Made by a program: the position numbers and the translations under genes
The notes under the pieces: generated by a model
Seen by the model: the letters and a program-made list of their open reading frames with translations, nothing else
Told to the model about the DNA's origin: nothing
Databases searched by the model: none
Part shown: piece by piece, positions 31,261 to 38,116 of the stretch
Position numbering within the stretch: position 1 is the stretch's first letter
Layout: every line of letters begins with the position of its first letter
Origin: a virus
IMG/VR virus record: IMGVR_UViG_3300037493_002604
Coordinates: 1 to 42,126 of that record
Direction: 5' to 3' (one strand)
DNA: 42,126 bases

Positions 31261-31457
31261 AAAAATACGATCACACATGGCTTATCGCAGAATTGGAGCG
31301 GATGGGTCGGCCAGAGCGTGAAGCATCATTCACCCACGGCACATGCGAATGGAAAGACCCCTCGTTATGCGGCCTGTTGTTGTTGGAGAATAAAAAAAAG
31401 CCCCAAGTCATCGGGGCTTTTTCTATTACATCACCGTCTTGTCTTGCGTATCCGTAG
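31257..31457 (+). CDS. Small hypothetical protein running through a terminator
   Basis: A 66-residue frame coupled by ATGA to the preceding gene (MKKYDHTWLIAELERMGRPE). About residue 46 onward it is encoded by the terminator hairpin at 31389-31421 and by the antisense of the portal gene end, so the last 20 residues are unlikely to be native. Probably a truncated accessory gene whose original 3' end was lost, or a gene that ends by terminator-limited transcription. Confidence 0.5.
   Translation: MKKYDHTWLIAELERMGRPEREASFTHGTCEWKDPSLCGLLLLENKKKPQVIGAFSITSPSCLAYP
31389..31421. terminator. Bidirectional terminator
   Basis: AAGCCCC, 8-nt loop, GGGGCTT with A/T-runs on both sides. It serves the portal gene on the minus strand and the small accessory unit on the plus strand. 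Confidence 0.92.
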
Positions 31458-34310: not shown

Positions 34311-34383
34311 CCTTCTAACATCATCAATCCTAGCAAGCCTCATTACGGGGCTTGTTTTTGGCGCATGTAAGGATATTGATTAA
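34303..34383 (+). CDS. Tiny hydrophobic peptide, 26 aa
   Basis: A 26-residue hydrophobic frame (MNSLLTSSILASLITGLVFG, then ACKDID) with a lipobox-like FGAC. It overlaps the preceding frame by 8 nt and the AP2/HNH-like gene start by TAATG. It may be a real small membrane or lipoprotein peptide, or only a coupling device. A CAAGCC/GGCTTG hairpin with TTTTT lies inside it. Confidence 0.35.
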   Translation: MNSLLTSSILASLITGLVFGACKDID

Positions 34384-34994
34384 TGAAAAAGTTAGTGCAT
34401 GGTATTGGCATTAATGATGCAGATTATGTGGTTAGACCCACCATTAACGGCAAGCAAGTAATGTGTAGAATTTACATGACTTGGAATAACATGATTACTA
34501 GATGTTATAACGAAAAACGTAAATCCAGATTCCCAAGTTACATTGGCTGCACCGTTTGTGATGAATGGTTGGTATTTTCAAACTTTAAGAAGTGGATGGA
34601 GAATCAAGACTGGAAAGGTAAGCATTTGGATAAGGATATTATCTACCCAATGAACAAGCAGTACGGCCCAAATAATTGTGTTTTTATTTCTAGTGGATTG
34701 AACATGCTATTAATAGACCATGCTGCCAAGAGAGGGATATTCCCAATAGGTGTCTGTTGGAGTGATGCAAGGAAAAAATTCATGTCATACGTAACAGTGA
34801 ATAGCAAGCCAAAGCATTTAGGTTTGTTCGAAAATAAAGAATTTGCCCATCAAGCATGGCAAAAAGCCAAAAAAGAATTGATCTACATTGCTGCACAGGA
34901 ACAAGAAAACGAACGAGTAAAGAATGCTTTACTTTCAAGATGTACACAACTGCAATATGATATTGATAACGAGTTGGAGACAGTAAAATTATGA
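34383..34994 (+). CDS. AP2/HNH-like DNA-binding protein
   Basis: The 203-residue protein resembles a widespread phage family of homing-nuclease relatives. The N-terminal MTWNNMITRCYN and CTVCDEWLVFSNFKKWMENQ, then LDKDIIYPMNKQYGPNNCVF, form the conserved HNH-like treble-clef region. The second half, with IGVCWSDARKKFMSYVTVNS and LGLFENKEFAHQAW, is an AP2-type DNA-binding domain. The classic catalytic His pair is not obvious, so it may bind rather than cut. It is inserted between holin and spanins with coupled start (TAATG) and end (ATGA). Confidence 0.8.
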   Translation: MKKLVHGIGINDADYVVRPTINGKQVMCRIYMTWNNMITRCYNEKRKSRFPSYIGCTVCDEWLVFSNFKKWMENQDWKGKHLDKDIIYPMNKQYGPNNCVFISSGLNMLLIDHAAKRGIFPIGVCWSDARKKFMSYVTVNSKPKHLGLFENKEFAHQAWQKAKKELIYIAAQEQENERVKNALLSRCTQLQYDIDNELETVKL

Positions 34995-35461
34995 ATTCAA
35001 TTCTAATGCAATCCATTGTTGCAAGCTTCATTGTTGGTGCTTTTGGCGGGCTATATACTGGTTATCAGTACTCGCAAGGGAAGCAGGCCATTAAAAACAC
35101 CGCCATAATGACAGAGCAGGCTTCTGCTGTGGATAATGCTCGCATAGAAGAGCAGGAAATTGTAAAGGCTGACGTAGCCACATCTAAAACATACCAAGAG
35201 GGATTGAACGATGGTAAAAAAGATCTTAATGCTGTTATTGCTAAGCTTCGCTATGATAGGGTGCGCAACAGTTCCACCGGTAGTGCAAGTATGCCCACAA
35301 ATACCACCACCGCCAGCGGACGTGATGCAGAAGAGAGAGCCTACATTTTTGAAGAGATGGCAAGACTTGCAGGAGAAGCTGACGACGTTACAAAACAATT
35401 AACGGCAGCTCAGGATTTGTTAGATGGCAGGGCTGCGGCAATCAACCAAACCACACCTTAA
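34991..35461 (+). CDS. Inner-membrane spanin, Rz-like
   Basis: This 156-residue i-spanin has an N-terminal membrane anchor (about residues 5-25, LMQSIVASFIVGAFGGLYTG) and a long helical periplasmic part (about 35-150) rich in Ala, Glu, Lys and Asp. It fuses inner and outer membranes together with Rz1 at the last step of lysis. Its start overlaps the upstream stop (ATGA). The o-spanin gene lies wholly inside it in another frame, the strongest evidence for the assignment. Confidence 0.9.
   Translation: MNSILMQSIVASFIVGAFGGLYTGYQYSQGKQAIKNTAIMTEQASAVDNARIEEQEIVKADVATSKTYQEGLNDGKKDLNAVIAKLRYDRVRNSSTGSASMPTNTTTASGRDAEERAYIFEEMARLAGEADDVTKQLTAAQDLLDGRAAAINQTTP
35211..35402 (+). CDS. Outer-membrane spanin lipoprotein, Rz1-like (embedded)
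   Basis: The 63-residue lipoprotein has a signal sequence MVKKILMLLLLSFAMIGCA with a lipobox ending in Cys18, and a Pro-rich mature start (TVPPVVQVCPQIPPPPADV). This is the classical Rz1 profile. It is encoded entirely within the Rz-like gene in a different frame. The mature 46-residue protein would sit in the outer membrane and bind the Rz C-terminus. Confidence 0.92.
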   Translation: MVKKILMLLLLSFAMIGCATVPPVVQVCPQIPPPPADVMQKREPTFLKRWQDLQEKLTTLQNN

Positions 35462-35555: not shown

Positions 35556-35741
35556 ATGGTTAATTACTATGTGTATGACTCATCAAAATTCTCAACACTT
35601 CTTGACGCAATTGATTCAAAGCAGGCTTTTAATGCAAATGCATTTATCAATATAAAAAATGATGTTGAGATTGGTAAGCTGGTTGATTTTCTATCTGATT
35701 GCTTCGGATTTGAGGTTAGAATAACCAGAGAAATTTTATAA
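35556..35741 (+). CDS. Small hypothetical protein, 61 aa
   Basis: A single-gene unit with its own promoter and terminator. The 61-residue protein (MVNYYVYDSSKFSTLLDAID) looks like a small alpha/beta domain ending FGFEVRITREIL. AAGGGG lies upstream of the ATG. Not recognised. It is an insert between the spanins and the split terminase locus. Confidence 0.68.
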   Translation: MVNYYVYDSSKFSTLLDAIDSKQAFNANAFINIKNDVEIGKLVDFLSDCFGFEVRITREIL

Positions 35742-35774
35742 AAAAAAACCCCACACTTGTGGGGTTTTTTTTAT
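35741..35774. terminator. Bidirectional terminator
   Basis: AACCCCAC, 4-nt loop, GTGGGGTT with A/T-runs of eight on both sides. It stops the 61-aa gene (plus) and the terminase C-part (minus). Confidence 0.95.
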
Positions 35775-36025
35775 TAAACAAACAACTTACCACGTTTAGG
35801 CCGCTTGATTAATGGGCCTAGGGCGTAGCGAATCGCATCTATGCAGTTGTGAACAAGAATTCCAGATGCTACAAACTCATGATCATCTTTTACCGTTAAG
35901 TCATATACCTTATTAGCCTTTCCGATATCTACTACCGACAGCACAAGAACGGGTACAAAATCGTACTTTGGCGTGTTTATTTGACGTAAACGACGATCCA
36001 CATAGCTCGCAATTCTTTTCAACAT
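35774..36025 (-). CDS. Intein C-half fused to the last 23 residues of TerL
   Basis: The 83-residue protein has residues 1-60 as the intein C-terminal part. Block F is KVYDLTVKDDHEFVASGIL and block G ends LVHN, with Asn60 as the cyclising residue and Cys61 as the +1 nucleophile. Residues 61-83 (CIDAIRYALGPLIKRPKRGK and so on) are the TerL C-extein, with the third catalytic Asp of the packaging nuclease. An in-frame stop (TAG) lies two codons before the ATG, and a strong Shine-Dalgarno AGGAAGGA lies 7 nt upstream, so it is translated on its own. It should splice in trans with the product of 36440-38116. Confidence 0.9.
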   Translation of the reverse strand: MLKRIASYVDRRLRQINTPKYDFVPVLVLSVVDIGKANKVYDLTVKDDHEFVASGILVHNCIDAIRYALGPLIKRPKRGKLFV

Positions 36026-36808
36026 TATCTAGTCCTTCCTTTCTGCGCCATGCTGATTTACATGCATTAGTACAAAACTTGTTGTCATGCCCTACCCTTG
36101 TTGATTTGAATGATTTTCCACATTGCTTGCAATTCAAATCAATAGGTACAAAATTAATCCATGCTTGCTTACCTATTTCTGAATGCTTTGCTTTTCCTTC
36201 TAAGCTTGAATGCCAAGCTTTGGTAAGTGGTCTTATCCTGTTTAGGAGAGTCCTATTATTGAAGCGCCTATCTTCATCCCATTCATGCTCTGCAAAATGA
36301 TCTTTTACGGTCAAGCATTCAAGATTTTTTATATCGTTATTCAATGGATCATCGTCCATATGATGGATATGCATTCCTTTTGGTATGACCCCATGTGCAT
36401 CAGACCAAATTGCACGATGAAGCCATACCGTACCGCCTGTTATTGACCTTTTGAAATAAACCCTATCGCTCCTGCGTTCACTTTCAGGATAGCGATTATA
36501 TTTCTTGCCTTTGTATATAACTGTTTCAACCATGATTTACGTTCAACCGCCATTAATATAGTATCACCATATCTTATAGCATCGGCACGAATAAAGCCAC
36601 GGCCTTTAACGAATATCTTATGGCATGGGGTACATTTCAGAGTCTTATCTCCTGCTTTTATCTCTAAAATATCTCTGTTCTCTCCTGATTGCCAAGCATC
36701 AATAACTTCTTTCATGCCTGATCTAGTTAGAACAAAGTCACCAGTCTTTACTTGCTCAATTGGTATATCGCCTTTTGATGTTGTAACAAGCTCACCTTCT
36801 GCTATGCA
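35846..36808 (-). mobile_element. Split intein / HNH endonuclease insertion in terL
   Basis: This 963-bp element interrupts terL between the His and Cys codons of the DKDNH/CIDAIRY motif. It carries the intein N-half (codons from 36808), an HNH gene in another frame, and the intein C-half (to 35846). TGCATAG occurs at both edges. Splicing would remove both intein halves and rejoin a TerL of about 459 residues. Confidence 0.88.
35913..36533 (-). CDS. Free-standing HNH homing endonuclease inside the split terL
   Basis: The 206-residue protein has a clear HNH core at about residues 35-85 (TVWLHRAIWSDAHGVIPKG, HIHHMDDDPLNNDIKNLEC, then TVKDHFAEH). Two Cys4 zinc fingers follow (CKQCGKSF...FCTNAC at about 134-153 and CELCGSSF...FCTRSC at about 175-198) for DNA recognition. 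It overlaps the end of the intein N-half gene by 94 nt and the start of the intein C-half gene by 113 nt, in a different frame from both. The ribosome binding site is weak. It probably cuts intein-free terL copies and drives spread of the element. Confidence 0.9.
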   Translation of the reverse strand: MVETVIYKGKKYNRYPESERRSDRVYFKRSITGGTVWLHRAIWSDAHGVIPKGMHIHHMDDDPLNNDIKNLECLTVKDHFAEHEWDEDRRFNNRTLLNRIRPLTKAWHSSLEGKAKHSEIGKQAWINFVPIDLNCKQCGKSFKSTRVGHDNKFCTNACKSAWRRKEGLDNVEKNCELCGSSFTSNKHAKVRFCTRSCAVGSRYRKG

Positions 36809-38116
36809 GTGATTGTCTTTATCCACAATATCAGGAAGCACATCACCAGTAAGCCTATCTACCTTGAATGAATACGCATTAGCCTCATGAATCGCATTTT
36901 TGCACCGAGGATGAATGATAATCTCTTCATATGACCTAAGGTGTTCAATACCATCCTCCACCGAGCCAGGCCATTTTTCACAGCCTTCAATATTGAACCC
37001 ATGCCGCTTGATATGGCTAATTGTTTCTGGCCTCGCACAATCAGCCCTAATTTTATATCGTTTAGCATCTGGCACTGATTCATAGAATGCAGGCATATCA
37101 TCCAATTCAACACCTACTTTGCAAGCCTCATACTCAACATACAATCGGCTATTGTGTACCCAGCACCTAACCAATGTTGACGGATCTTGCGAGAAACCAA
37201 AGTCAGCGCCATAAAGCGGACTACCCCATGATTTATCAGGCGTGAATTCATCAATACGCCATTTACCATTGAGCACCTTCACATTGCTATTGCGTCGAAA
37301 CTTTCCTTCCCATATCCATAGATAACGATCAGTATCAACGCGCCTCATCTTGTCGCGGGTAATGATTAGCTCTTCAGTCAACCAAGGGTTATGCGTGTGA
37401 TTGCACTCAATGATAAGCGTGTCTTTGTCTTCATAGATTCCATCTACAGCCTTGTCCCAATATGGAGCAACCATATCCGCCCACATTGGGTCTGTTTCTT
37501 CGCGTGGGTTAAACGTAAACCACAACTCAGAACCTGCCCCACGAATAGTTGGTTCAAGCACATCCAGACTAGCACGGCTTACATTTTCAGCTTCATCAGT
37601 CCAAGCCTTTGTGGCCCCTGCATATCCCTTAATGTTGGTAATGTTTCTGTATAAGCCGCCAAAGCTAAAACGTGACTTTGTAGAAGGAACTTTAATCTCT
37701 GAATCCAAAACCCTAAACTCGTTTGAGTTGCCCTTTCTGTTCACCTCATCGGCAATTTCTTGATAAGAACTATCTTTAATGGCCGCCATTATCTCGCGGA
37801 AACAAGCCACGCGCTCGGTGGTGATTCTGGCGCTCTCAGTTAATATAGACACAACCGTGCGAGTCTTGGCACTACCACGTCCTCCCCATACTATCTTAAT
37901 GCGCTTCGGATAAAGCAACTTCTCCAAACGCTCAGGAATAAGAATGGTTGCTTCTTCTTCTGTCTCGCAAATGCCATCAGGAGTCATTTTCAGACTCCTG
38001 ATAACTTCACGATCCATATTGCAAATGCCAAACACTGCAGAATGGTTTGCTTGGCCTATCTCTTGAATAAATGTTTCTAATTTGCCTAGCTTTGCACTAC
38101 TTAGGCGCTTTGCCAT
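36440..38116 (-). CDS. Large terminase N-part fused to the intein N-half
   Basis: The 558-residue product has residues 1-436 as TerL N-extein. Visible are Walker A GGRGSAKT (78-85), Walker B WTDEAE (172-177), motif III FTFNP (200-204), and the RNase H-like nuclease with Asp305 (GADFGF) and Asp359 (ADCARPE), ending DKDNH. Residues 437-558 are the intein N-half: Cys1 in CIAEGELVTTSKGDIPIEQV (block A) and KCTPCHKIF (block B, TxxH), then a basic tail ending at a true stop. ATG 38116 has GGAG upstream; a TTG at 38134 is less likely. Without splicing, the packaging nuclease lacks its third catalytic Asp. Confidence 0.93.
   Translation of the reverse strand: MAKRLSSAKLGKLETFIQEIGQANHSAVFGICNMDREVIRSLKMTPDGICETEEEATILIPERLEKLLYPKRIKIVWGGRGSAKTRTVVSILTESARITTERVACFREIMAAIKDSSYQEIADEVNRKGNSNEFRVLDSEIKVPSTKSRFSFGGLYRNITNIKGYAGATKAWTDEAENVSRASLDVLEPTIRGAGSELWFTFNPREETDPMWADMVAPYWDKAVDGIYEDKDTLIIECNHTHNPWLTEELIITRDKMRRVDTDRYLWIWEGKFRRNSNVKVLNGKWRIDEFTPDKSWGSPLYGADFGFSQDPSTLVRCWVHNSRLYVEYEACKVGVELDDMPAFYESVPDAKRYKIRADCARPETISHIKRHGFNIEGCEKWPGSVEDGIEHLRSYEEIIIHPRCKNAIHEANAYSFKVDRLTGDVLPDIVDKDNHCIAEGELVTTSKGDIPIEQVKTGDFVLTRSGMKEVIDAWQSGENRDILEIKAGDKTLKCTPCHKIFVKGRGFIRADAIRYGDTILMAVERKSWLKQLYTKARNIIAILKVNAGAIGFISKGQ

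Follow-up and report, generated by a model that had tools for sequence, protein, structure and literature searches.

Split inteins are standard tools of protein engineering, and their origin is usually put down to an endonuclease gene breaking up an intein. Dassa et al. reportedly described fractured genes with split inteins in 2009. Here we address the natural origin of split inteins through a terminase large subunit gene (terL) that is encoded in two pieces, with an HNH endonuclease gene between them, in the 42,126-base IMG/VR virus record IMGVR_UViG_3300037493_002604 (the window, meaning the whole stretch analyzed). Among the closest described systems are a fractured polB with an HNH gene in Pseudomonas phage MIJ3 (PMC6892783), the AceL NrdHF fractured gene (PMC7891396), and the AceL-TerL and GOS-TerL split inteins, which have been studied biochemically and spliced in vitro (PMC11766414). 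An HNH gene lies out of frame in terL of brucellaphages (PMC4422536), and the ShiLan domain is an insertion free of stops, with an HNH protein bearing zinc fingers encoded in its other frame (PMC11855218). We propose that terL of the window carries a genuine split (trans-splicing) class 1 intein that descends from a continuous, dual-coding one, and put the probability of this reading at roughly 85%.

The split terL and its HNH gene all lie on the minus strand, with terL spread over two open reading frames (ORFs), 38116-36440 (558 residues, ATG to TAA) and 36025-35774 (83 residues, ATG to stop). In the first ORF, TerL residues 1-436 close with DKDNH and the intein N-half begins at Cys437, while the last ORF runs from VYDLTVKDDHEF through LVHN to CIDAIRYALGPLIKRPKRGKLFV, so that the elements of a class 1 split intein are present (C437, block B TPCH, the LVHN end and a Cys+1 nucleophile). 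In a Pfam and NCBIfam profile search the first ORF matches Terminase_3 (E-value 8.7e-33) and Terminase_3C, and its intein N-half matches Hint_2 and TIGR01445; Intein_splicing matches both halves (7.8e-5 and 1e-6, each under Pfam's cut-off) and the intein C-terminal model TIGR01443 matches the C-half above its cut-off (4.9e-9). Coordinates, motifs and profile matches thus bear out the first-pass annotation of the window, which had read terL as two frames carrying an intein N-half and then a C-half, with an HNH gene in another frame overlapping both. The HNH gene (36533-35913), in frame +2 relative to the intein frame, overlaps the first ORF by 94 nt and the last by 113 nt; it lies between the intein halves, as in fractured genes, and is not separate from either coding region. 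The two halves share one reading frame, a point missed in the first pass, which had noted the stop of the first ORF and an in-frame TAG before the second; such stops exist, but the total between the halves is 12, of all three kinds. With these stops and the strong Shine-Dalgarno sequence already credited to the C-half, 7 nt 5' of its ATG, the halves are predicted to be translated as separate polypeptides.

Because the stops number 12 and include all three kinds, neither a single base error nor stop-codon reassignment yields one frame. Sequencing or assembly error is ruled out by two assemblies from other metagenomes (L002 and L003, IMG/VR, 99% identical) that show these three ORFs free of indels; the only single-nucleotide polymorphism inside the element is synonymous, at 36602. 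The restored single frame that the first-pass annotation had named as a possible refutation was not found, nor was an intact second terL, part of the other refutation named there, in the window record, which may be incomplete. In an intein-free relative (L004) TerL has 459 residues and the C-terminus NNH-VIDAIRYAVGPLIKR, and joining the window's DNH to CIDAIRYALGPLIKR at the matching position likewise gives 459 residues. The two halves, the repeat assemblies, the 459-residue intein-free TerL and the lack of an intron or a second terL together make trans-splicing the best reading. The splice site is directly 5' of the IDAIRYA motif, which we take to hold the third metal-binding aspartate of TerL nucleases. 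The 436-residue N-extein is therefore short of one part of the nuclease site, and a functional TerL should depend on splicing; completion of nuclease motif III by splicing is a possible means of timing DNA packaging.

The origin of the split is illuminated by relatives that were out of reach of the first-pass annotation, as was the derivation of the split from them. Loci were collected in two sets, one found through the C-half and one through HNH alone (viral contigs and genomes; 80 loci kept of at least 256), the latter supplying most of the 89 loci in which both intein halves lie in one continuous frame with HNH nested at a constant offset of +2. Nearly all loci of the HNH set are in TerL at the same motif (nuclease motif III), and Pfam recognizes terminase families in many of their N-exteins. 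Acinetobacter phage Highwayman, Tetrasphaera phage TJE1 and Rhodobacteraceae phage MD07 also have a continuous frame of this kind, and the HNH gene is unannotated in their records. Two further continuous inteins, one in a clamp-loader-like AAA protein (L012, 1598-2338) and one in a helicase (L013, 3902-4777), carry DUF559/MTES_1575-type nucleases at offset +1, so that dual coding of this kind extends to another nuclease family. When the HNH genes were shuffled synonymously with residues and codon counts fixed, the intein frame across the 91 loci (the 89 plus L012 and L013) contained 0 stops against 190.9 expected, whereas the third (control) frame of the same loci contained 1561 against 1647.1. 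Linker identity is close to that of the unused third frame (0.50 and 0.52 for L041/L042; 0.54 and 0.50 for L021/L026), HNH identity is 0.75 in both pairs, and differences between close pairs fall mostly at HNH third positions, indicating that HNH is under protein-level selection and that the linker need only stay open. The linker amino acids thus look unconstrained in the continuous relatives. A predicted structure agrees with the linker being merely an open frame: in the model of the continuous L016 intein the HINT halves (residues 1-85 and 285-325) reach predicted local distance difference test scores (pLDDT) of 91-96 and superpose on the gp41-1 intein (6qaz) with a root-mean-square deviation of 2.2, and the linker (residues 90-283) scores mostly 30-50.

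In the window the same frame is open no longer. Over the HNH gene it contains 12 stops against 11.0 expected from synonymous shuffles (0 in the 89 relatives), so that the open-frame constraint has been fully lost. In a concatenated tree the window falls in a clade of 11 rows, 10 of them continuous (support 98/95), which is nested in further supported continuous clades, and the other split TerL inteins lie elsewhere (L036, L058, L081, L104, L122, L124, L126, L129 and L130). A single origin of all split TerL inteins is rejected (approximately unbiased test, p 8.9e-5). Placed among continuous members and apart from the other splits, the window's split arose independently and, on grounds of parsimony, from the continuous state. 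One apparent further split, in L120, was discarded, as its HNH overlap has no stops and it looks like a frameshift in the contig. Split TerL inteins were found here in two cultured phages: in Lactobacillus phage CL2 (L036, 376-2692) TerL, HNH and an unannotated C-half ORF make up a fractured terL, and in Brochothrix phage BL3 (L141, 727-2607) gp2 and gp3 look like an unrecognized split TerL intein, the C-half starting just 3' of two stops in the corresponding stretch and HNH persisting as a C-terminal remnant.

The start site of the C-half is embedded in the endonuclease gene, since both the ATG at 36025 and its Shine-Dalgarno sequence fall within the HNH codons RRKEGLDN, from which the C-half is probably translated. 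The HNH motif R-R-x-x-G-x-D-N/D, when followed by a codon beginning with G, spells ATG in the intein frame, and the purine-rich codons that precede this latent ATG can serve as a Shine-Dalgarno sequence. An ATG is present at the motif in 6 of 9 split loci and 23 of 88 continuous loci (Fisher p 0.019), and an ATG with a strong Shine-Dalgarno sequence in 4 of 9 versus 5 of 88 (p 0.0037); with related loci treated as independent and the site chosen after inspection, this enrichment is suggestive only. If the endonuclease gene already holds a start and a ribosome-binding site in latent form, the host gene could be split without any further insertion or rearrangement.

These observations can be assembled into a mechanism. 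The still common and, by comparison of the relatives, ancestral state is a single open frame TerL-IntN-linker-IntC-TerL with HNH in frame +2 on the linker, which makes the linker a stop-free by-product without visible sequence constraint. In the window's lineage the linker frame has decayed to the neutral number of stops, with HNH and both splicing halves retained and the C-half probably translated from the start inside the HNH codons. The two precursors, of 63.5 and 9.5 kDa, would then come together and be spliced into a TerL of 459 residues (52.6 kDa) whose nuclease has its motif-III aspartate back, and the HNH protein would cleave intein-free terL and so drive homing. More generally, we are inclined, with some reserve, to think that phage inteins commonly have their homing endonuclease written over the linker in another frame, and that splits arise repeatedly by loss of the no-stop constraint through a latent start and ribosome-binding site.

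The final layout would be the same as in published fractured genes if a free-standing endonuclease gene had inserted directly into the intein and broken it, and free-standing HNH homologues do occur near terL in BP10, PAE1 and Shemara; but the HNH gene overlaps both halves at an offset fixed across 89 continuous inteins and the window branches within such inteins, which makes this route unlikely. The intein might instead be dead, HNH insertion or decay having broken terL in a lineage that is defective or uses another terminase. A linker frame full of stops fits such a history, in which the predicted splicing would not take place, yet every splicing residue is intact, the record holds no second terL, the three assemblies are alike with neither half frame-damaged, and the C-half has its own strong Shine-Dalgarno sequence and leads into a C-extein that ends like intein-free TerL; we regard a dead intein as quite unlikely. 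That the two TerL pieces work as non-covalent subunits without splicing has a parallel in nrdA, which can function in pieces where a homing endonuclease gene splits it, according to work cited in PMC10448857. It is nonetheless highly improbable for the window, where the intein motifs, complete on either side, would then serve no purpose and the C-terminal piece of TerL has only 23 residues. HNH genes are often intron-borne and the halves share a frame, as joining of the pieces by a group I intron or programmed frameshifting would have it, but no Rfam intron matches the region even at E-values up to 1, no slippery heptamer was recognized by eye at the boundary, and with intein motifs at both joints and 12 stops of all kinds in frame this alternative is scarcely credible.

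Several points weigh against the derived split intein that we favor. Translation of the C-half, trans-splicing, the need for it in packaging and homing by HNH are all predictions from sequence; the first-pass proposal of a trans-spliced TerL intein with an HNH enzyme fits everything testable, with splicing and HNH cleavage retaining this predictive standing. The direction from continuous to split is a parsimony argument, and the tree places the window in its clade but not beside one exact sister. The three split assemblies are nearly identical, so that they count as one lineage and selection on the two halves is unmeasurable between them. Lastly, HNH has no close solved homologue: a fold search of the PDB gave no significant match, I-HmuI being a weak match only.

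The window's HNH frame is modeled by AlphaFold with high confidence. Within the HNH family H57, H58, L71, H79 and the zinc cysteines are invariant, and N65, N66 and N70 are conserved in at least 90% of members. The TerLs nearest to that of the window (75% and 66% identity) are intein-free, whereas the intein-bearing kin share only ~40% in TerL, with 43-55% in the N-half, 40-54% in HNH and 60-70% in the C-half, indicating that the element probably moved horizontally. Arrival by homing would be the simplest account, and the family, the insertion site and the patchy spread all suggest that HNH cuts intein-free terL and drives homing. Free-standing HNH homologues near terL, with no intein found, are present at five loci (L137-L140 and L142; BP10, EauM-23, PAE1, Shemara and FBPa53); they may be sources from which the nested gene came or copies that escaped from it. 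Another HNH gene of the window, distinct from the first (34383-34994, plus strand; phrog_953, E-value 1e-86) adjoins an Rz-like spanin gene, and the stretch containing it (34366-35049) is missing from L002 and L003, pointing to a recent insertion or loss. L002 has ~370 extra bases relative to the window near 31392, beside the portal gene.

Features of the split terL locus in the window
Feature	Position	Strand	Evidence
TerL N-extein, residues 1-436, ATPase domain and most of nuclease domain	36809..38116	-	Terminase_3, Terminase_3C; 75% identity to intein-free L004 TerL
Intein N-half, 122 residues, Cys1, TPCH; final ~31 codons overlap HNH gene	36443..36808	-	Intein_splicing, Hint_2, TIGR01445; HINT fold in model of continuous family member
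HNH homing endonuclease gene (putative), 206 residues, HNH_3 and two zinc-ribbon motifs, frame +2	35913..36533	-	HNH_3 E-value 2.6e-15, phrog_15471, 28-member alignment, AlphaFold pLDDT 94
Decayed linker, intein frame between halves, 12 stops	36026..36442	-	Homologous stretch open in 89 relatives
Shine-Dalgarno AAGGAAGGA of C-half, within HNH codons R-K-E-G	36033..36041	-	Duplex energy -7.8 kcal/mol
Intein C-half, 60 residues, blocks F and G, LVHN end	35846..36025	-	TIGR01443 E-value 4.9e-9, Intein_splicing
TerL C-extein, 23 residues from Cys+1, with IDAIRYA motif of nuclease site	35777..35845	-	L004 intein-free TerL ends alike; aligns with NHTIDATRYA of SPP1 TerL nuclease 2wbn
Terminator-like hairpin 3' of operon	35740..35770	.	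Sequence; leader and small RNA models match there only under cut-offs

Because about 90 relatives keep the precursor state and the window has the derived one, this route to a split intein becomes testable. The relatives also supply many cases of gene overlap, left unannotated in several records that were examined, where one frame encodes a protein and for the other it is enough to remain free of stops. The 60-residue C-half may prove useful as a new splicing reagent.

Already on record are fractured genes, MIJ3 polB with its HNH gene among them, as well as split TerL inteins and one HNH gene lying out of frame in terL, so that the suggestion in the first-pass annotation of an undescribed system was overstated. 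We found no paper that unites the dual-coding intein as a widespread form with a split derived by linker decay, two sources on non-canonical inteins lying beyond the reach of the search; these two, Gorbalenya 1998 and a 2025 preprint by Gosselin on inteins of actinobacteriophages, may already describe endonucleases out of frame in inteins, which would make the general pattern less new but leave the derived split unaffected. The brucellaphage HNH, compared by description, belongs to one phage group and is unsplit, and no Brucella phage is among the matches to the window's HNH at an E-value of 1e-6. The ShiLan domain, unlike the window's element, sits in a methylase without an intein or splicing domain. 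AceL-TerL and GOS-TerL are, like the window's intein, naturally split in phage TerL with Cys+1, but are divided after 25 or 37 residues (C-part 104-115), whereas the window's halves have 122 and 60. Highwayman, TJE1 and MD07 carry a TerL intein and HNH homologous to those of the window, but in a continuous frame. Fractured genes share with the window a host gene interrupted by a split intein whose halves flank an endonuclease gene; judged by published descriptions, the window differs in that its nuclease gene overlaps both halves and its relatives display a continuous dual-coding precursor.
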